DNA from: Psychroflexus gondwanensis ACAM 44
Lineage (GTDB): Bacteria; Bacteroidota; Bacteroidia; Flavobacteriales; Flavobacteriaceae
Assembly: GCF_000355905.1 (NCBI RefSeq)
Contig: NZ_APLF01000012.1
Location: forward strand, 1-64,000
DNA: 64,000 nucleotides
Direction: 5' to 3'
In this document: positions 17,361 to 28,393 of the stretch, piece by piece
How positions within the stretch are numbered: position 1 is the stretch's first letter
How the letters are laid out: every line of letters begins with the position of its first letter
Notes under the pieces: generated by a model
What the model saw: only the letters and a program-made list of their open reading frames with translations
Databases searched by the model: none
Told to the model about the DNA's origin: nothing
Made by a program: the position numbers and the translations under genes

Positions 17361-17774
17361 ATGAATTTTTGTCCTCAATGTCAATCTGATAGAATAGTGA
17401 AAAGTGGTATCGTGAACGACCGTCAGCGTTATAAATGTAAATCATGTAATTACTTTTTCACTGTTAATAAATTGGGAAAAAAAATTGATCAGTATTATGT
17501 TACTAAAGCGCTTCAGCTATATTTAGAAGGGCTCACTTATCGTGAAATTGAACGTATTTTAGGAATTTCTCATGTGAGTGTGATGAATTGGGTAAAGAAG
17601 TATAATATTCAAAAAGTTCAAAATTTAGATTTTCATCCCACCTACAAAATTTTAAGTCAAAACGAACTTGGAAATTACTTTTCTCTACCAGAGAACACAA
17701 AAGGATCTGGTATGATTGTCACAGAACTTGGAGATAAATTCATGGTTATTAAATGGGAACGATTTAAAGAATAG
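17361..17774 (+). CDS. Transposase-derived Zn-ribbon/HTH protein, possible regulator
   Basis: The 137-residue protein has an N-terminal four-cysteine zinc ribbon (Cys4, Cys7, Cys26, Cys29) like the N-terminus of IS1 InsA. A helix-turn-helix follows at about residues 58-81 (LTYREIERILGISHVSVMNW), then a unique C-terminal segment of about 45 residues. No catalytic transposase domain, second IS1 frame or terminal inverted repeats are found, and the reading frame is intact. This suggests a domesticated DNA-binding protein rather than a mobile element. It lies 113 bases upstream of the porin gene of the carboxylate locus in the same direction, behind a strong terminator, so it may regulate that locus. 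The regulatory role is inference. Confidence 0.75.
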   Translation: MNFCPQCQSDRIVKSGIVNDRQRYKCKSCNYFFTVNKLGKKIDQYYVTKALQLYLEGLTYREIERILGISHVSVMNWVKKYNIQKVQNLDFHPTYKILSQNELGNYFSLPENTKGSGMIVTELGDKFMVIKWERFKE

Positions 17775-17826
17775 CTATACCAGTTACCAAAAATATATAT
17801 TTAATTTTAATTAACAGATTTATTAT

Positions 17827-17884
17827 TTCAAGTTCGTGTCAAGTTATTAGCAATAAAAAGTTTAAAAAATTAAAAACTTGACAC
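17827..17884. promoter_or_regulatory. Inverted repeat (possible operator or leader hairpin) before the porin gene
   Basis: GTGTCAAGTT (17836-17845) and AACTTGACAC (17875-17884) are perfect 10-base inverted repeats 29 bases apart, ending 3 bases before the porin start codon. A further TCAAGTT (17828-17834) makes a third half site as a direct repeat. It could be an operator for a local regulator or an mRNA hairpin that hides the start site. Confidence 0.55.
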
Positions 17885-17887
17885 ATA

Positions 17888-19105
17888 ATGAGATATTATA
17901 TTACACTCTTTGTATTGTTTGCACTTGTTTTTAGTAAGAGTGGGTTTTCTCAAGGGTCACCTTATTATAAGGGAGGATTCAAAATTAAGTTTGACGATAG
18001 CGATGATAAGTACGTTAGAATTTTAACTTGGGTTCAAACGCAAGCTAACTTTTCAGACTCTCGTTCAGACGACCAAGCCGATGTTTCTTTTCAATTAAGA
18101 CGTGCACGATTACTTGTTTATGGTCAAATAACAAAAGACTTCCTAATTCTAACTCATATTGGTATTAATAGCCTGAATGCTTCAAATATGGATCCTTTGG
18201 GAGCCGATGGCGCTCCTCAAGTCTTTATGCATGATGCTTGGGCACAATACGATGTTTCAGATCAGATCGTAGTTGGTGGGGGACTTCATTATTGGAATGG
18301 TTTGTCGAGATTGAATTCTCAAGGAACTTTAAATTTGATGACATTAGATAATAATAGATCGTCTTGGGCTACTTTAGGACTTGTTGACCAGTTTGCCAGG
18401 CATGTTGGTGTATTTGCTAAAGGTAATTTTGGAAAACTTCAATATAACGTAGCAATTAATGAAGCAATTGTGAATGGTCTAGACACCAATCCTTTATCTA
18501 ATACTAATGCGGTCTACCGAGGTGCCAATATTCTGGGAACTGCTGAAGCTGGAAAAACGTACACAGGTTATTTTGCATATAATTTCCTTAATCTGGAATC
18601 CAACTTCCTTCCATATAAAGTAGGGACTTACTTAGGTACTGAGCGAATCTTTAATGTAGGTGCTGGGTTTTACCATCATCCAAATGGAGCGGTCATAATT
18701 AAAGAAAATCAAGCTGTTGGTGAGAATGTGAATCTTTTTGCTGCAGATTTATTTTATGATGCTCCAATAGGAGAACAAGGGGCTTCTTTAACAAGTTACG
18801 CCGTTTTTCAATCTAATGATTATGGGACAAATTATTTATTAGGACCCTATTCTTCTGGTGAGATGCTTTACGGACACTTTGGGTATCTTCTTTCAAGTAC
18901 AAATTCTACAACTCGTTTTCAACCCTACGTTTCCTATAACTATACTTTTATAGATGCTTCAGATCAGGATAGAACTATTTTAGGATTGGGGATAAACGCC
19001 TTTCTGAATGGTCATAATTCAAAATTAACTTTAGAGTACAAATCAGAGTCATTCGGAAATATAAACCAGAACACCCTTAGCCTTCAGGCTATGATATACT
19101 TATAA
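17888..19105 (+). CDS. Outer-membrane porin of the carboxylate locus
   Basis: The 405-residue protein has a signal peptide ending near residue 22 (SGFSQG) and a beta-barrel pattern. Alternating hydrophobic and aromatic strands follow, and the C-terminus ends in an aromatic/hydrophobic strand (LSLQAMIYL). The start GGFKIKFDDSDDKYVRILTWVQTQANF resembles phosphate-selective or OprP-like porin families of Bacteroidota. It is the first gene before DUF4212 (3 bases between) and the SSS symporter, so it probably lets the same substrate cross the outer membrane. Selectivity cannot be read from the sequence. Confidence 0.8.
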   Translation: MRYYITLFVLFALVFSKSGFSQGSPYYKGGFKIKFDDSDDKYVRILTWVQTQANFSDSRSDDQADVSFQLRRARLLVYGQITKDFLILTHIGINSLNASNMDPLGADGAPQVFMHDAWAQYDVSDQIVVGGGLHYWNGLSRLNSQGTLNLMTLDNNRSSWATLGLVDQFARHVGVFAKGNFGKLQYNVAINEAIVNGLDTNPLSNTNAVYRGANILGTAEAGKTYTGYFAYNFLNLESNFLPYKVGTYLGTERIFNVGAGFYHHPNGAVIIKENQAVGENVNLFAADLFYDAPIGEQGASLTSYAVFQSNDYGTNYLLGPYSSGEMLYGHFGYLLSSTNSTTRFQPYVSYNYTFIDASDQDRTILGLGINAFLNGHNSKLTLEYKSESFGNINQNTLSLQAMIYL

Positions 19106-21259: not shown

Positions 21260-21454
21260 ATGAAAAAGAGACATCAACAAAAACTTATTTTTTTAAGCTT
21301 GAGTTTAATCTTGCTTATTAATATACCGTTTGTCTTCGCTTACAATTCTGATGTTTCGGTTTTGGGATTTCCCTTATTCTACTTTTTCATTTTTGTAATT
21401 TGGTTGATAAGTGTTGTCATCTCATTTTCAATCCTTAAAAAATATTCAGATTAA
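21260..21454 (+). CDS. Small two-helix membrane protein
   Basis: From the ATG at 21260 this is a 64-residue protein with a basic N-terminus (MKKRHQQK), two hydrophobic helices (about residues 9-27 and 33-57) and a basic tail. A start at 21221 would overlap the hairpin at 21186-21234 and is less likely. Its stop overlaps the start codon of the SSS-histidine kinase (TAATG), which implies translational coupling. It resembles small partner subunits of symporters and may assist the sensor kinase membrane domain, but I do not recognise a named family with certainty. Confidence 0.7.
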   Translation: MKKRHQQKLIFLSLSLILLINIPFVFAYNSDVSVLGFPLFYFFIFVIWLISVVISFSILKKYSD

Positions 21455-24150
21455 TGAGTAAAACTGCACTCATAGCTCTCATATTTGTTTATTTGGGAAT
21501 TTTGTTTCTCATTGCTTTTTTTGCTGAAAAAAATAAAGGGTCAAAATTAGTTTCACATCCAGCTATTTACGGACTTTCACTTGCGGTTTATTGTTCTGCT
21601 TGGACTTATTATGGTAGCGTTGGGATGGCTGCAACGTCTGGAATAGAATTTCTTACCATATACCTTGGTCCAGTGATAGCCGCCCCATTATGGGTTATAG
21701 TACTCAAGAAAATTATTTTACTATCCAAAGCTTATAATATCTCTAGTATTGCAGATTTTATATCTCTAAGATATGGAAATAGCCGGTCACTGGGTGCTCT
21801 GGTGACTTTAGTTTGTCTTGCTAGCATCATTCCTTATATTTCTTTACAGCTCAAAGCAATTTCTGAAACTTTTGAAATTGTTTCTACCTCGACGATAGGA
21901 ATTGAAGGGACCTCTGTTATCACAGATTCCACTTTTTATATCGCTCTCATTTTAGCAGTTTTTGCTTCATTTTTTGGGACTTTATCTCTAGATGCTTCCA
22001 AAAACCGAACAGGAGTCATGTTTTCTGTCGCTGCTGAATCTATTTTGAAACTTACATTTTTCGTAATCGTTGGTGTTTATGTCACTTTCTATGTTTTTGA
22101 TGGGACGACAGACCTTTATGAACAAGCTAATTTGGATTTAAACTTGAATAAGCTTAGCACCATAAATGGTTTAAACGGAGGTATAAACTGGTACTTTAGT
22201 ATCGCACTTTCCTTTTTAGCAATTTTTCTATTGCCAAGACAGTTTCAGACTTCAGTGGTAGAATTCAACAACCGCAAGCAACTTAAAACGGCCATTTGGT
22301 TGTTTCCTTTATACTTATTGCTTTTCAATGTTTTTGTTATTTTTATAGCTTGGGGTGGTTTGTTGATTCTAGGAAATGAATCTAATGCAGATTATTTTAC
22401 GCTTCTTATTCCCTTGCATTTTGGCGATAAATGGCTTGCTGTTTTAGTCTTCTTAGGGGGTCTTTCTGCAGTCATATCAATGGTAGTGGTTTCTACAGTT
22501 GCTTTGTCTACGATGTTGAGTAATAACCTCATTATACCCTATGGTTTTTTAAAAAAGCTAACCAATAATAAGTCCTTGAACAATGAGAAAACCATAAAAA
22601 ACATAAGACGGCTTTGTATTTTTAGCTCAATAATTCTTGCTTATTTACTCTATTCAATGTTCAATCCACAGGTTTCTTTATTTTCGATTGGGCTCATTTC
22701 ATTTTTAACTATAGCCCAGCTAGCTCCAAGTTTTTTTATAGGAATGTTTTGGAATAGGGGCTCTGCTTTAGGGTCCAAAGTTGGAATCTTACTTGGAATG
22801 AGTGTCATAGTTTTTACCTATTTGCTGCCTTTTTTTACTGAAAATGTTTTGAATAATAATAAATTTGTAGAAGAGGGATTGTTCGGTATAGGAGTTTTAA
22901 AGCCTTACGCTCTTTTCGAAATCGAATTACTGAATCCTGTAAATCACGCTTTATACTGGAGTTTACTTCTGAATACTGGAGCTTATCTAGTGTTGTCCGT
23001 CATTAGAAAAGGTAATTATAGAGAACGCAATTACGGAGAGATGTTCGTAAATAGTGAAAAAGTCATTCAACTTAAAGAGAATGCTTTTGTTTGGAAAGGG
23101 GAAGCCTACGTGGAGGATATTCAGAATATTTTAATTCGCTTTCTTGGGCAAGAAAAAGCTGATAAGGCCTTAAAGGTTTTTAGAAAGAGATACCAGGTAA
23201 ATCCAGAAGAAAAGTTGGCAGATGCAAGATTTATAAACTTTTCAGAACGTCTACTCACCGGAGCAGTAGGTAGTGCTTCAGCGAAAATATTGATTTCTAA
23301 TGTGGCAAAAGAAAAGCCAGTCTCTTTGGTCGAAGTGCTTAAAATACTTGAAGAAAATAGAGAAACCATTTCTGTAAATAAATCTCTGGAAGAACAATCT
23401 CAAAAATTGATAAAGCTAACTTCAGATTTAAAATTGGCCAATGAAGAACTTAAAATTCAAGATCAATTGAAGGATGACTTTTTAGATACGGTTGCACATG
23501 AGCTTAAAACACCAATTACGTCTATAAAAGCCAGCTCAGAAGTTCTATCAGAAGACGATGACATGCCGCTGGAGCTTCAGCAAAGATTTTTGGGTAATAT
23601 CATTCAAGATACAGAGCGTTTAAATGTGCTGATTAATGATATTTTAGATTTAGAAAAAATGGCTTCAGGTAGAGATATGTTAACCTTAAAATCCCATCGT
23701 CTCGACGAATGCGTTCAAGAGGCTATACATGGAATAAGTAGTATTGCTCAAAAGGAGAATATCGATGTCAGATTTCAACCTGTTTCAAATGTAGTATTGG
23801 AATTCGACTACAGTAAAATTTTGCAAGTCTTTACTAATTTGCTTTCTAATGCTTTAAAATTTGTCCCTGATAAGAAGGGACTTATTGAAGTTTTTCTAGA
23901 GCACAATTCAGAAGAAATAGTGTGTACAATAAAAGACAATGGGAAAGGAATTCCAGAAGAGGATATACACTTAATTTTTAAGAAGTTTTATCAGTCTAAG
24001 AATCAAACTTTCAAAAAGCCAACAGGAAGTGGTTTTGGACTAGCCATATGCCAGCAAATTGTGGAGATGCATGGAGGAGAGATTTATGCAAATCCAAAAC
24101 TAAAAATCGGTGCGGAAATTATAATAAAATTGCCAAAATTCAAGTCATGA
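21454..24150 (+). CDS. SSS-STAC-histidine kinase (CbrA-like sensor)
   Basis: This 898-residue sensor joins a transporter-like membrane domain to a kinase. Residues 1-530 hold about 13 membrane segments of the SSS family. Residues 545-625 resemble the STAC linker (core RLLTGAVGSASAKILI near residue 600). A coiled coil (about 635-670) and a HisKA domain follow, with the phosphorylated His682 in DTVAHELKTPI. The HATPase domain shows LTNLLSNALKF, IKDNGKGIPEEDI and GSGFGLAICQQ. Such CbrA-type proteins sense or transport nutrients and control carbon use. The stop overlaps the start of the response regulator (ATGA), so kinase and receiver are cognate partners. Context points to a carboxylate signal. 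Confidence 0.9.
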   Translation: MSKTALIALIFVYLGILFLIAFFAEKNKGSKLVSHPAIYGLSLAVYCSAWTYYGSVGMAATSGIEFLTIYLGPVIAAPLWVIVLKKIILLSKAYNISSIADFISLRYGNSRSLGALVTLVCLASIIPYISLQLKAISETFEIVSTSTIGIEGTSVITDSTFYIALILAVFASFFGTLSLDASKNRTGVMFSVAAESILKLTFFVIVGVYVTFYVFDGTTDLYEQANLDLNLNKLSTINGLNGGINWYFSIALSFLAIFLLPRQFQTSVVEFNNRKQLKTAIWLFPLYLLLFNVFVIFIAWGGLLILGNESNADYFTLLIPLHFGDKWLAVLVFLGGLSAVISMVVVSTVALSTMLSNNLIIPYGFLKKLTNNKSLNNEKTIKNIRRLCIFSSIILAYLLYSMFNPQVSLFSIGLISFLTIAQLAPSFFIGMFWNRGSALGSKVGILLGMSVIVFTYLLPFFTENVLNNNKFVEEGLFGIGVLKPYALFEIELLNPVNHALYWSLLLNTGAYLVLSVIRKGNYRERNYGEMFVNSEKVIQLKENAFVWKGEAYVEDIQNILIRFLGQEKADKALKVFRKRYQVNPEEKLADARFINFSERLLTGAVGSASAKILISNVAKEKPVSLVEVLKILEENRETISVNKSLEEQSQKLIKLTSDLKLANEELKIQDQLKDDFLDTVAHELKTPITSIKASSEVLSEDDDMPLELQQRFLGNIIQDTERLNVLINDILDLEKMASGRDMLTLKSHRLDECVQEAIHGISSIAQKENIDVRFQPVSNVVLEFDYSKILQVFTNLLSNALKFVPDKKGLIEVFLEHNSEEIVCTIKDNGKGIPEEDIHLIFKKFYQSKNQTFKKPTGSGFGLAICQQIVEMHGGEIYANPKLKIGAEIIIKLPKFKS

Positions 24151-24521
24151 AAAAGATACTACTAGTAGATGACGAACCCAACATCATTATGGCGTTGGAG
24201 TATACTTTGAGAAAGAATAACTATGATATCTTCATCGCAAGAGATGGAGAAGAAGCCATTGTGCTTTCAGAGAAGCTACAACCCGACCTGGTTATTCTGG
24301 ATATCATGATGCCAAAGGTGGATGGTTATGAAGTTTTAGATTATTTGAGAGAACACGAAACACTAAGACATACAACTCAAACTATTATTATAAGTGCTAA
24401 ACAAAAAGAAAGCGATGTCCAGAAGGCTTTAAGTCTTGGAGCAAAAGAATATATCAAAAAGCCATTTTCAATGAAAAAGCTTTTGAGTACTGTAACTGAT
24501 TTATTAACACCAAACCATTAA
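24147..24521 (+). CDS. Single-domain response regulator (receiver only)
   Basis: The 124-residue protein is one CheY-like receiver: acidic pocket Asp8/Asp9, phospho-acceptor Asp52 in VILDIMMPK, a conserved Ser/Thr region (IIISAKQ) and Lys-Pro in YIKKPFS. There is no DNA-binding or enzyme output domain. The ATG at 24147 overlaps the kinase stop codon and gives the canonical N-terminus MKKILLVDDEPN; an earlier in-frame start inside the kinase gene was rejected. It is followed 11 bases later by the double acyl-CoA synthetase. Because it has no output domain it must act through a protein partner or a phosphorelay. Confidence 0.92.
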   Translation: MKKILLVDDEPNIIMALEYTLRKNNYDIFIARDGEEAIVLSEKLQPDLVILDIMMPKVDGYEVLDYLREHETLRHTTQTIIISAKQKESDVQKALSLGAKEYIKKPFSMKKLLSTVTDLLTPNH

Positions 24522-24532
24522 AATATAGCATT

Positions 24533-27500
24533 ATGACTTATAAAGAAGTATATCTAAAAAGCATTGAACATCCAGAAGAATTTTGGTTGGAAGAGTCCAA
24601 AAAAATAAAGTGGTTCAAAGCTCCAACTAAAGCTCTTGAGCAGACTTCAGAAGGGATTTACAATTGGTTTCCAGATGGAGAGACCAACCTGAGTTATTTG
24701 TGTCTAGACCAGCACGTTCAAGATGGATTTGGTGATGAGATCGCTCTTATATACGATTCTGCTGTAAGGCAAAAGCAAGTCAAGCATACCTACAATGAAG
24801 TTTTAGAAAAAGTATCTAAACTTGCCGGTGGACTAAGAGAATTGGGAGTAGAAAAGGGAGACCGGGTCATCATTTATATGCCTATGATTTCTCACTCATT
24901 ATTCAGTATGCTCGCATGTGCTAGGATAGGCGCTATACACTCCGTAGTTTTCGGAGGTTTTGCTCCAGATGAATTGGCGATGAGAATAGATGATGCAAAA
25001 CCTAAACTTATTATTACAGCCACTTCAGGTATAGAAGTCGATAGACTTATTGCCTACAAGCCTATGGTAGATGAGGCAATTGAAAAGGCAAAGCACAAAG
25101 TTGAAAAAGTAATCGTCTTCAATAGGAAACTTGGAGTAGAATTTGAGGAAAAATCTTATGATATAGATTACTTAGAATTAATGGAAAAGGCTAAACCAGT
25201 AAAGGCTGTAGCTTTAAAGTCTCAAGATCCATCCTATATTCTATATACATCTGGAACGACTGGTTCACCAAAAGGAGTGGTAAGAGACACTGGTGGCTAT
25301 GCTGTTGGCCTTAAATTTTCAATGGAAAATATTTATGGCACCAAACCAGGTGATACCTTCTGGGCCGCTTCGGATGTAGGTTGGGTAGTAGGGCATAGTT
25401 ATATAGTCTACGCTCCAATGATTCATAGAAATACGACTATAATTTATGAGGGTAAACCGGTTAAAACTCCAGATGCTGGCGCTTTTTGGAGAGTGATAGA
25501 AGATCACAAAGTGAATGTAATGTTTACAGCACCTACTGCGTTTAGAGCTATTAAAAAGGAAGATCCAAAGGGTGAATTTATAAAAAAATATGATATCTCT
25601 TCTCTGAAATATCAATTTTTGGCAGGAGAGCGATGTGATGAAACCACTTTGAAATGGGCACAGAATCATCTAAAAGTTCCTGTAATTGACCATTGGTGGC
25701 AAACAGAGTCGGGATGGCCTATTGTTGCCAATCTTATGGGATTAGATGCTTTACCAATTAAGCCAGGTTCTACAGGGAAGCCTGTTCCAGGATATGATCT
25801 TGAAATACTTTCTGAAGAAGGCGAGGTCTTACCAGCTAATACGGAAGGTTACATTTGTTCTAAACTACCGCTGCCTCCTGGGTTTATGCAAACGCTTTGG
25901 AATAACCATGAGCGTTTTAAAAATGGATACTTGAGTAAGTTTCCTGGTTATTATTTTTCTGGGGACGGTGGTTTCATAGACGAAGAAGGTTACGTATTTA
26001 TAACCGGAAGAATTGATGATGTTATCAATGTTTCTGGTCATCGTTTTTCTACTGCGGCTCTAGAGGAAGTGGTATCCCAACACCCCTCTGTTGCTGAATG
26101 TGCCGTAGTTGGACTACAAGATGCGCTCAAAGGTGAAATCCCTTTAGCTATTGTCGTTCCAAGACTGGGTGAGGAGAATTATGAATCCTATAAGATGCAA
26201 ACTGAAATCATTCAACTGGTAAGGGATAAAATCGGCCCTATTGCGGCATTAAAAAATGTAGTTATCGTTAAACGACTTCCCAAAACAAGAAGTGGTAAAA
26301 CTTTAAGAAGGACGCTTAAAAAACTAGTGGCTGGAGATCCCTACAACCTGCCATCTACTATTGAAGACCCGATGGTAATAAGTGAGATCATAGAGATTTT
26401 TGATCAACAAAAAATTGGTGCATTTAGTTCTAATAAAAATCAAGTCACACAATCTCTAAAAGCACTTACCAAAAGTTATTATACTATTGATTCTTTAGCA
26501 AAATACATTGATGTCTATAGGATTTCTCAAAATGATCCAGAGAATTTTTGGAATACCATTGCAGAAAGAAACTTTGTATGGAGAAAAAAATGGGATTCTG
26601 TCTTAAAATGGAATCCTGAAAAAGCGGAGGTAAGTTGGTTTGAAGGAGCTCAACTCAATATTACTGAAAATGCTATCGATAGACATTTAAAAACTAGGGG
26701 AAACAAAACGGCGATCATTTGGGAACCCAACAATCCAGACGAAGAAGCACTGCACATCACTTATAATGAGCTGTCTAAGCGCGTCAATAAAATGGCGAAT
26801 GTGTTGAAAAGAAATGGTGTCCAAAAAGGAGATCGCGTTTGTATTTATTTACCCATGATTCCTGAGTTGGCTATTTCAACCCTGGCCTGTGCTAGGATAG
26901 GAGCAGTTCACTCTGTCGTATTTGCAGGATTTTCAGCATCTGCACTCTCTTCAAGAATTAACGATTCAGATTGTAAGATGGTCATCACTTCCGATGGGTC
27001 ATACCGCGGTTCTAAAACTATTGATTTAAAAGGTATTGTAAATGAAGCTTTGGAAAGCACGCCTTCTGTAGAATGTGTTTTGGTCGCTAAGCGTACATTT
27101 TCCAAAATCGAGATGAAAGAAAATCGAGACGTCTGGCTTCATGAAGAATTGAAAAAAGTAGATGATAAATGTGAAGCAGAAGTGATGGATGCTGAAGATA
27201 TGCTTTTCATACTTTATACCTCTGGTTCTACAGGAACTCCAAAAGGGATGGTCCATACGACAGCTGGATATATGGTATATACTGCGTTTTCATTTAAAAA
27301 TGTTTTCCAATACAAAGAAAATGATGTGTACTGGTGTACGGCAGATATAGGGTGGATTACTGGCCATTCTTATATTGTTTATGGTCCACTTCTCAATGGA
27401 GCAACAACCTTAATGTTTGAAGGTGTTCCTTCTTATCCAGATTACGGAAGATTCTGGGATATTGTAGATAAATATAAGGTTAACCAATTTTACACGGCTC

Positions 27501-28393
27501 CTACAGCAATAAGAGCATTGGCTAAACAGGACATTAAGTTTGTTAATCAATACGATTTATCATCCCTTAAAGTTTTAGGAAGTGTAGGAGAGCCTATTAA
27601 TGAAGAAGCTTGGAATTGGTACAATGAAAATATTGGCAAAAAGAAATGCCCCATTGTAGATACGTGGTGGCAAACTGAAACAGGAGGTATCATGATCTCT
27701 CCAATTCCTTTTGTAACTCCCACCAAGCCTACTTATGCCACACTTCCTCTACCAGGTATACAGCCCTCTTTAATGGATGAAAAAGGAAATGAAATTGAAG
27801 GTAATAGCATATCTGGAAGACTATGCATTAAGCATCCTTGGCCAAGTATGGCAAGAACTGTTTATGGAAATCATCAACGCTATATCGACACTTATTATTC
27901 AGCTTATGAAAATATTTATTTCACTGGAGATGGGGCCCTTAGAGATGAGGTGGGTTACTACCGTATAACAGGTAGAGTAGACGATGTTATCATTGTGTCT
28001 GGTCATAATTTGGGAACTGCACCAATAGAAGATGCTATCAATGAGCATCCAGCAGTTGCAGAGTCTGCCATTGTAGGATTTCCTCACCAAGTGAAAGGAA
28101 ATGCTTTAGCTGGATTTATCATTTTGAAAAATGATGGAGAATCTAGAAATAGGGAAAATTTAAGTAAAGAAATTAATCAATTAATTTCAAGCAAAATAGG
28201 TCCTATAGCCAAGTTGGATCGTGTTCATTTTGTCTCTGGTTTACCTAAAACTCGAAGTGGAAAGATCATGAGAAGAATTATGAGAAAGGTATCTTCCAAC
28301 GAAGCAGATCAAATAGGAGACGTTTCAACTTTGCTCGATCCTACCATTGTTGATGAAATAAAAGAAAAGGTAGCCCCTTTTTTAAATGAATAA
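24533..28393 (+). CDS. Fused propionyl-CoA synthetase-like and acetyl-CoA synthetase-like protein
   Basis: One uninterrupted 1286-residue frame encodes two complete AMP-forming acyl-CoA synthetases. Module 1 (about residues 1-610) is PrpE/ACSS3-like: AMP-binding YTSGTTGSPKG (238-248), FTAPTAFRAIKKEDP, LAGERCD, HWWQTESGW and the catalytic PKTRSGKTLRR (Lys589). Module 2 (about 655-1286) is Acs-like: YTSGSTGTPKG (895-905), FYTAPTAIRALAK, TWWQTETGG and PKTRSGKIMRR (Lys1244). Each has its own N-terminal ACAS_N-like region. Both catalytic lysines are present, so both modules could be active, and both lie in a context that is the usual target of lysine acetylation control. Normal family length is about 630-650. 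The gene closes the locus of porin, symporter and sensor genes. Confidence 0.9.
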   Translation: MTYKEVYLKSIEHPEEFWLEESKKIKWFKAPTKALEQTSEGIYNWFPDGETNLSYLCLDQHVQDGFGDEIALIYDSAVRQKQVKHTYNEVLEKVSKLAGGLRELGVEKGDRVIIYMPMISHSLFSMLACARIGAIHSVVFGGFAPDELAMRIDDAKPKLIITATSGIEVDRLIAYKPMVDEAIEKAKHKVEKVIVFNRKLGVEFEEKSYDIDYLELMEKAKPVKAVALKSQDPSYILYTSGTTGSPKGVVRDTGGYAVGLKFSMENIYGTKPGDTFWAASDVGWVVGHSYIVYAPMIHRNTTIIYEGKPVKTPDAGAFWRVIEDHKVNVMFTAPTAFRAIKKEDPKGEFIKKYDISSLKYQFLAGERCDETTLKWAQNHLKVPVIDHWWQTESGWPIVANLMGLDALPIKPGSTGKPVPGYDLEILSEEGEVLPANTEGYICSKLPLPPGFMQTLWNNHERFKNGYLSKFPGYYFSGDGGFIDEEGYVFITGRIDDVINVSGHRFSTAALEEVVSQHPSVAECAVVGLQDALKGEIPLAIVVPRLGEENYESYKMQTEIIQLVRDKIGPIAALKNVVIVKRLPKTRSGKTLRRTLKKLVAGDPYNLPSTIEDPMVISEIIEIFDQQKIGAFSSNKNQVTQSLKALTKSYYTIDSLAKYIDVYRISQNDPENFWNTIAERNFVWRKKWDSVLKWNPEKAEVSWFEGAQLNITENAIDRHLKTRGNKTAIIWEPNNPDEEALHITYNELSKRVNKMANVLKRNGVQKGDRVCIYLPMIPELAISTLACARIGAVHSVVFAGFSASALSSRINDSDCKMVITSDGSYRGSKTIDLKGIVNEALESTPSVECVLVAKRTFSKIEMKENRDVWLHEELKKVDDKCEAEVMDAEDMLFILYTSGSTGTPKGMVHTTAGYMVYTAFSFKNVFQYKENDVYWCTADIGWITGHSYIVYGPLLNGATTLMFEGVPSYPDYGRFWDIVDKYKVNQFYTAPTAIRALAKQDIKFVNQYDLSSLKVLGSVGEPINEEAWNWYNENIGKKKCPIVDTWWQTETGGIMISPIPFVTPTKPTYATLPLPGIQPSLMDEKGNEIEGNSISGRLCIKHPWPSMARTVYGNHQRYIDTYYSAYENIYFTGDGALRDEVGYYRITGRVDDVIIVSGHNLGTAPIEDAINEHPAVAESAIVGFPHQVKGNALAGFIILKNDGESRNRENLSKEINQLISSKIGPIAKLDRVHFVSGLPKTRSGKIMRRIMRKVSSNEADQIGDVSTLLDPTIVDEIKEKVAPFLNE

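Follow-up and report, generated by a model that had tools for sequence, protein, structure and literature searches.

Does a single gene of Psychroflexus gondwanensis ACAM 44 encode two different short-chain acyl-coenzyme A (acyl-CoA) synthetases, and, if so, how did it arise and what might it be for? The gene lies in the first 64,000 nucleotides of contig NZ_APLF01000012.1 (the whole stretch that we analyzed, hereafter the window), where a PrpE-like and an Acs-like enzyme follow one another in one frame. We conclude that the product is very probably a bifunctional enzyme that was formed by translational fusion of the operon neighbors prpE and acs, with propionate as the likeliest substrate of its N-terminal half and acetate as that of its C-terminal half. 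Both enzyme families and the CrbS-like genetic context are already known; the new part is the PrpE-Acs fusion itself, of which we found no description in titles or abstract openings of the open-access literature.

The frame (24,533 to 28,393, forward strand) starts with ATG and runs through 1286 codons with no internal stop. An earlier note, made from the sequence alone, had given its coordinates and length, two ATP-binding motifs, two catalytic lysines and the LAGERCD and TAFRAIKKEDP segments, and all of these were recovered as given there; the last two are residues 363-369 and 335-345, respectively, of the N half. Pfam recognizes two stretches each of ACAS_N, AMP-binding and AMP-binding_C. 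The ratio of nonsynonymous to synonymous substitution rates (dN/dS) in 12 comparisons within Psychroflexus, most of them with dS near saturation, ranged from 0.018 to 0.102 in the PrpE half and, in the 11 comparisons where it was computable, from 0.018 to 0.116 in the Acs half; these values indicate that both halves evolve under purifying selection. The proposal that one gene holds two complete synthetases is thus supported by the doubled domains, by the two intact active sites and by selection on both halves. The genome of the window yielded no second Acs or PrpE gene; its remaining matches were short and weak.

We then assigned each half to an enzyme family. The top-scoring models of the N half (residues 1-619) were both propionate--CoA ligases, NF007815 (748.8 bits) and TIGR02316 (690.9 bits), and its scores on acetate models were lower (661.5 and 658.1 bits). 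The C half scored 957.2 bits on the AcsA model TIGR02188, which has a cut-off of 724.95. Among solved chains, 5gxd was the nearest to residues 1-623, and residues 657-1279 were closest to Salmonella-type Acs chains. A tree of 28 rows was built from 12 PrpE-type and 14 Acs-type chosen rows and anchored by PrpE and Acs of E. coli; 38 loci had been left out before this tree and before the pocket alignment described below. All PrpE-type rows grouped with E. coli PrpE and all Acs-type rows with E. coli Acs, with support 100/100. The second half is therefore acetyl-CoA synthetase-like, as the earlier note had it, on the strength of the AcsA cut-off and the tree.

In the numbering of Salmonella Acs, we take Lys609, Asp500, Arg515, Trp414, Thr311, and Val386 to be catalytic or pocket residues. 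At the aligned positions, the N half has Val310, Val311, Ala386, Trp414 and the catalytic Lys, with Val311 and Ala386 being the residues of E. coli PrpE, while the C half has Ile310, Thr311, Val386, and Trp414 together with Lys609, Asp500, and Arg515, with Thr311 and Val386 being those of E. coli Acs. Ala386 was found in all PrpE rows (31/31 fused and 47/47 unfused, i.e. 78/78, of which 74 rows were different) and Val386 in all Acs rows (31/31 fused and 68/68 others, i.e. 99/99, of which 95 were different). The catalytic Lys was present in every PrpE and Acs row except for one fused Acs row (L285), whose gene is cut by a contig end. The excerpts seen of six papers (PMC8383264, PMC5436829, PMC11255334, PMC6298115, PMC7918813, and PMC5715377) held no experimental support for a role of position 386. 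Taken together, the N half is similar to E. coli PrpE and to 5gxd in domains, motifs and the pocket residues Val311, Ala386, and Trp414, but differs from PrpE in its sequence (45.3% identical to the E. coli enzyme), in NCBIfam scores that fall short of the cut-offs and in its fusion to Acs. The C half (49.9% identical to E. coli Acs) is similar to Acs of E. coli and Salmonella in passing the AcsA cut-off and in the pocket residues Ile310, Thr311, Val386, and Trp414, but is preceded by a PrpE half and a linker.

The earlier note had left it to database searches whether homologues of similar length exist. Among 299 Flavobacteriaceae genomes, nine gave full-length matches, of which six were true single open reading frames and three were two in-frame neighbors. 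A draw of 246 genomes from the order added three true fusions (G521, G310, and G314), and 395 genomes drawn from the phylum gave no new fusion in the full-length rows, with two-match genomes of other families mostly left unopened. The three samples overlap; scoring covered, among the matches listed, the top two first-look candidates of each genome, and these counts could miss a fusion whose halves appear as distinct matches. In 9/9 fused genomes of the family and order samples, just one of the two scored candidates, the fusion, reached E 1e-100 or better; for G000, G174, G521, and G269 all candidates were scored. Within Psychroflexus, 20 of the 27 genomes are fused: 16 have full-length matches, of which 15 were fetched and called as single open reading frames (G889 was left out), and four have partial, stop-free matches spanning both halves, apparently cut by contig ends. 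The other seven comprise two with Acs and a linker remnant, two with a two-gene pair (in G895 the prpE is cut by a contig end), and three with acs only. In Lutibacter, stop-free matches indicate fusion in 30 of 38 genomes (28 full-length, 13 of them fetched and called as single open reading frames, and two partial), while six have acs only, one is interrupted and one has no match. A separate fusion of 1283 residues occurs in Pontibacter litorisediminis (Hymenobacteraceae), and 36 distinct fused proteins were fetched in total. At one locus of the Lutibacter genus (L286, G915), the PrpE and Acs halves could be read only in pieces, which represents either a broken gene or an assembly fault.

Two sets of candidates were discarded. 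Matches counted without checking for stops inflate the number of fusions, and G028, G063, G015, G517, G419, G487, G492, G483, G311, G527, and G545 proved to be two adjacent same-frame genes with stops between them. Acs matches with open-frame values of 1200-1500 (G102, G189, G598, G703, G469, G352, G394, G464, and G869) were found by open reading frame calling to contain no fusion.

Joining of operon neighbors is a known route to gene fusion, and the neighbors are still seen as separate genes in many genomes. A further 71 loci were fetched on the basis of a PrpE or full-length match; in 66 of them, prpE precedes acs on the same strand, the gap being -68 to 614 bases, and most of the 66 have the kinase and receiver genes before prpE, along with a VC_2705-type or another transporter. 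In many Flavobacteriaceae, acs stands alone or with the symporter gene only. The separate adjacent genes of Bacteroidota share families, order and strand with the Psychroflexus gene and mostly stand in the same porin-symporter-kinase-receiver cluster, whereas the Psychroflexus gene has lost both the stop between the two enzymes and the start codon of Acs, and one polypeptide results. Thus, fused homologues of similar length do exist in several genera, but two separate neighbor genes are the more widespread state; the fusion is derived, recurrent, and cut back again in two species.

How often did the two genes join? A single origin of all fusions was rejected by the approximately unbiased (AU) test with all fused rows held together (p 1.8e-31), because the Pontibacter fusion groups with unfused pairs, those of Hymenobacter among them. 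Hence, prpE and acs joined at least twice, once in Pontibacter and once in Flavobacteriales. Perhaps there was a third, with Psychroflexus apart from the Lutibacter group. In trees without Pontibacter, for which 33 loci (near-duplicates and long branches) had been dropped, one fused clade gave p 0.211 for the Acs half, and for the PrpE half, uniting all fused rows gave a tree slightly better than the free one (by 2.16 log units, p 0.546). The combined tree, for which five more fused rows (identical copies or truncated) had been dropped, needs three changes, and its starred branches force three; one Flavobacteriales fused clade was not rejected on it (AU p 0.152). Since the second, Lutibacter, fused group spans three families, the fused cluster possibly moved between families.

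The linkers are in accord with stop loss first and start loss later: the Pontibacter protein keeps what appears to be the old Acs start Met at residue 652, whereas the Psychroflexus and Lutibacter groups have no Met at that place. In two Psychroflexus genomes, G878 (L273) and G877 (L274), the PrpE half is absent, and the Acs half, which is nested in the Psychroflexus fused clade, begins with a remnant of the linker; in G878, the flanking genes are the same, but the segment from the zinc-ribbon gene through the PrpE half has disappeared from between them. Both have lost the PrpE half secondarily from a fusion. The gene therefore offers a natural experiment on when fusing operon neighbors pays, with at least two origins, with no other strong Acs match beside the fusion in those fused genomes that were examined, and with reduction to Acs in two species.

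Whether the joining has consequences of its own is a separate matter. The chance that it is neutral, i.e. that a stop was lost between two co-translated genes without functional effect and the halves work independently, is close to even. Full-length domains and active sites are kept in both halves, the linker is variable, the Acs half occurs alone in the two species mentioned above, and unfused pairs are more widespread. Furthermore, an in-frame Met at 614-615, before the linker, is found in 12/12 measured Psychroflexus fused proteins (three more misfit the pattern), and internal initiation there could yield a separate Acs product. Neutrality is less easily reconciled with the persistence of the fused state in 20/27 Psychroflexus and 30/38 Lutibacter-genus genomes, with at least two origins, and with the disappearance of the old Acs start Met; in the Lutibacter group, no Met is left between the PrpE end and the Acs domain in 20/20 distinct fused proteins.

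Acetate and propionate are common fermentation products that are taken up by bacteria. We propose that loss of the stop between prpE and acs led to the translation of one polypeptide. Each half of it is a complete AMP-forming synthetase, which would form an acyl-adenylate and then pass the acyl group to CoA as a thioester; propionate would most likely be the substrate of the N half and acetate that of the C half. Together with the porin-like protein, the sodium/solute symporter, the CrbS-like kinase and the receiver, the enzyme would probably make up a short-chain-acid uptake-and-activation unit that is switched on together. Acetyl-CoA would enter the tricarboxylic acid (TCA) cycle, and propionyl-CoA would be converted to succinyl-CoA through methylmalonyl-CoA mutase. 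The chief effect of the fusion would presumably be a fixed 1:1 supply of the two enzymes. The earlier note had suggested that activation of the two acids would become stoichiometric; at most, the fusion would fix the amounts of the two halves, not the fluxes. Judged from sequence, the likeliest role would be scavenging of acetate and propionate with their joint activation in a fixed ratio. The substrates, propionate specificity included, co-regulation and a benefit of the 1:1 ratio are what we infer from these data. Channeling, docking of the two halves and cross-regulation, for example by coupled acylation of Lys589 and Lys1244 along the lines suggested in the earlier note, would be hypothetical.

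The genome of the window has methylmalonyl-CoA mutase genes and gave no match to isocitrate lyase, so the TCA cycle could be replenished from propionate while acetate serves as fuel. We compared 80 genomes chosen from 125, with the acs-only class taken from the Flavobacteriaceae, Psychroflexus and Lutibacter scans; the groups are phylogenetically non-independent. The mutase was matched in 79/80 genomes, with or without prpE, and hence does not discriminate; the idea that prpE or the fusion tracks the mutase failed on this count. Isocitrate lyase was matched in 7/26 fused genomes (in G204 as a fragment only), 17/23 paired, 4/29 acs-only, and 0/2 half-lost genomes. Because it is commonest in two-gene genomes, the simple idea that prpE replaces the glyoxylate shunt is also disfavored, and because the fused genomes come mainly from two genera, the pattern is a lead and not a test. 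It is rather doubtful that the fusion was selected, at least twice and in bacteria mostly without the glyoxylate shunt, for a 1:1 ratio and both lysine switches in one molecule that balance acetyl-CoA fuel with TCA replenishment.

Another possibility is that the N half activates a different short acid, such as acrylate, 3-hydroxypropionate or butyrate, instead of propionate, which we regard as improbable. The N half falls below the curated propionate--CoA ligase cut-offs (748.8 against 955 bits for NF007815 and 690.9 against 827.4 for TIGR02316), and it clears the 657-bit cut-off of NF001208, a broad acetate--CoA ligase subfamily model. Together with the in-frame Met of Psychroflexus and the near-universal mutase, these scores weigh against our reading of the gene as a propionate- and acetate-activating fusion. 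Moreover, E. coli PrpE, just 45.3% identical, sits on a long branch in the anchored tree, as flagged by the program. However, propionate models are still the best for the N half and for 9/9 other PrpE pieces of Bacteroidota, of which six were unfused and three were fused, and since all nine are likewise under the cut-offs, the low score seems to be a trait of the Bacteroidota branch rather than of the fusion. Pocket positions 311 and 386 are also identical to those of E. coli PrpE. The earlier assignment of the first half to PrpE thus holds by tree (100/100), best model and pocket residues, but not by either curated cut-off, and for the latter reason its substrate is one that we infer.

It is very unlikely that the N half has lost catalysis and serves Acs as a regulatory domain, a view for which nothing beyond the bare possibility speaks: its ATP motif and the equivalents of Lys609, Asp500, Arg515, and Trp414 are intact in 31/31 fused PrpE rows and its dN/dS is about as low as that of the Acs half, and we reject it. 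We reject even more firmly a simple tandem duplication of one acs gene. The two halves share 39.1% identity and have their domains in the same order, but each groups with its own E. coli family member (100/100), and prpE and acs occur elsewhere as separate neighbors. An assembly or sequencing artefact in the linker, where the earlier note had wanted the read-through confirmed, is refuted by the same stop-free frame in independent genomes, 16/27 congeneric (four more partial) and 28/38 of the Lutibacter genus (two more partial). For annotation, one label for the fused gene would hide the second activity and may mislead.

Table 1. Features of the fused prpE-acs gene and of the cluster upstream of it (positions in the window)
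Feature	Position	Strand	Basis
Fused PrpE-Acs gene, 1286 residues	24533..28393	+	Open reading frame call and Pfam
PrpE-type half, residues 1-623	24533..26401	+	Profile scores, alignment to PDB 5gxd (1-623), tree
ATP-binding motif of PrpE half, residues 238-248, YTSGTTGSPKG	25244..25276	+	
Catalytic Lys589 codon of PrpE half, PKTRSGK	26297..26299	+	
Linker, about residues 624-652	26402..26488	+	Variable; no stop; no Met at place of old Acs start
Acs-type half, about residues 653-1286	26489..28390	+	Above Ac_CoA_lig_AcsA cut-off, tree
ATP-binding motif of Acs half, residues 895-905, YTSGSTGTPKG	27215..27247	+	
Catalytic Lys1244 codon of Acs half, PKTRSGK	28262..28264	+	
Zinc-ribbon/helix-turn-helix protein like N half of IS1 transposase, 137 residues; first gene of conserved cluster	17361..17774	+	
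Porin-like protein; weak match to ExtI porin model (66.9 bits, cut-off 150)	17888..19105	+	
Symporter small subunit (DUF4212), 90 residues	19108..19380	+	
Sodium/solute symporter, VC_2705 family, 595 residues	19388..21175	+	
Small protein, 64 residues; often precedes kinase	21260..21454	+	
Histidine kinase, 898 residues, symporter-like N-terminal membrane part (CrbS-like)	21454..24150	+	
Receiver-only response regulator, 124 residues; ATG overlaps kinase stop; ends 11 bases before fusion	24147..24521	+	

The genes upstream (Table 1) resemble a known acetate switch. Residues 310-455 of the kinase align to the symporter by profile (hhalign 93.6%, E 2.2e-7), and a profile search with the kinase matches the solved chain 10ed_A, named 'histidine kinase', over profile positions 3-462 (E 2e-84). 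Although Pfam SSF gave no match in the kinase, which counts against a symporter-like domain of the CrbS type, the profile alignments indicate that such a domain is fused to the histidine kinase, as in CrbS. By Pfam, the 124-residue response regulator consists of a receiver with no DNA-binding output domain, and the kinase contains no receiver domain; at other loci, most of 99 receivers counted have 118-127 residues (the count was limited to proteins below 175 residues). In Vibrio and Pseudomonas, CrbR activates acs and actP (PMC5715377, PMC5436829), and the CrbS/CrbR-actP-acs switch likewise has a symporter-like kinase and a receiver near acs and a symporter (PMC5715377, PMC5436829, PMC7918813). 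The Psychroflexus cluster differs in that its receiver has no DNA-binding domain, its kinase has no receiver domain and prpE is included. The likeness nevertheless suggests the same role for this cluster.

Because the cluster's receiver has no output domain, the 137-residue zinc-ribbon protein is possibly the regulator. It has an IS1/IS1595-type zinc ribbon, a helix-turn-helix and a conserved C-terminal tail; its match to the 199-position IS1 transposase model covers positions 1-107 only and falls below the cut-off. It occurs, with one match per genome, in 23/26 fused, 23/23 paired, 0/29 acs-only, and 0/2 half-lost genomes, and the three fused genomes without it (G879, G925, and G926) also have no kinase and receiver beside the fused gene. 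This protein may be the DNA-binding half of a domesticated transposase that serves as the cluster regulator.

The cluster varies among loci. At L281 (G879), L295 (G926), and L296 (G925), the fused gene has no transporter, kinase and receiver genes beside it. In family f5, at L149, L150 and loci like them, proteins of about 526 and 75 residues occupy the place of the DUF4212/VC_2705 pair in the cluster. In one Nonlabens metagenome-assembled genome and three Aquimarina (L205, L212, L238, and L256), the whole cluster stands with acs and no prpE alongside. Within 17,775-17,887, directly before the porin start, the window has an inverted repeat, GTGTCAAGTT...AACTTGACAC. Both of its arms (at most one mismatch each) were found in 2/58 such intergenic regions, with 0.0 expected from shuffles. 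In the congener locus L090, both arms are changed yet still pair, GTAACAAGTT...AACTTGTTAC.

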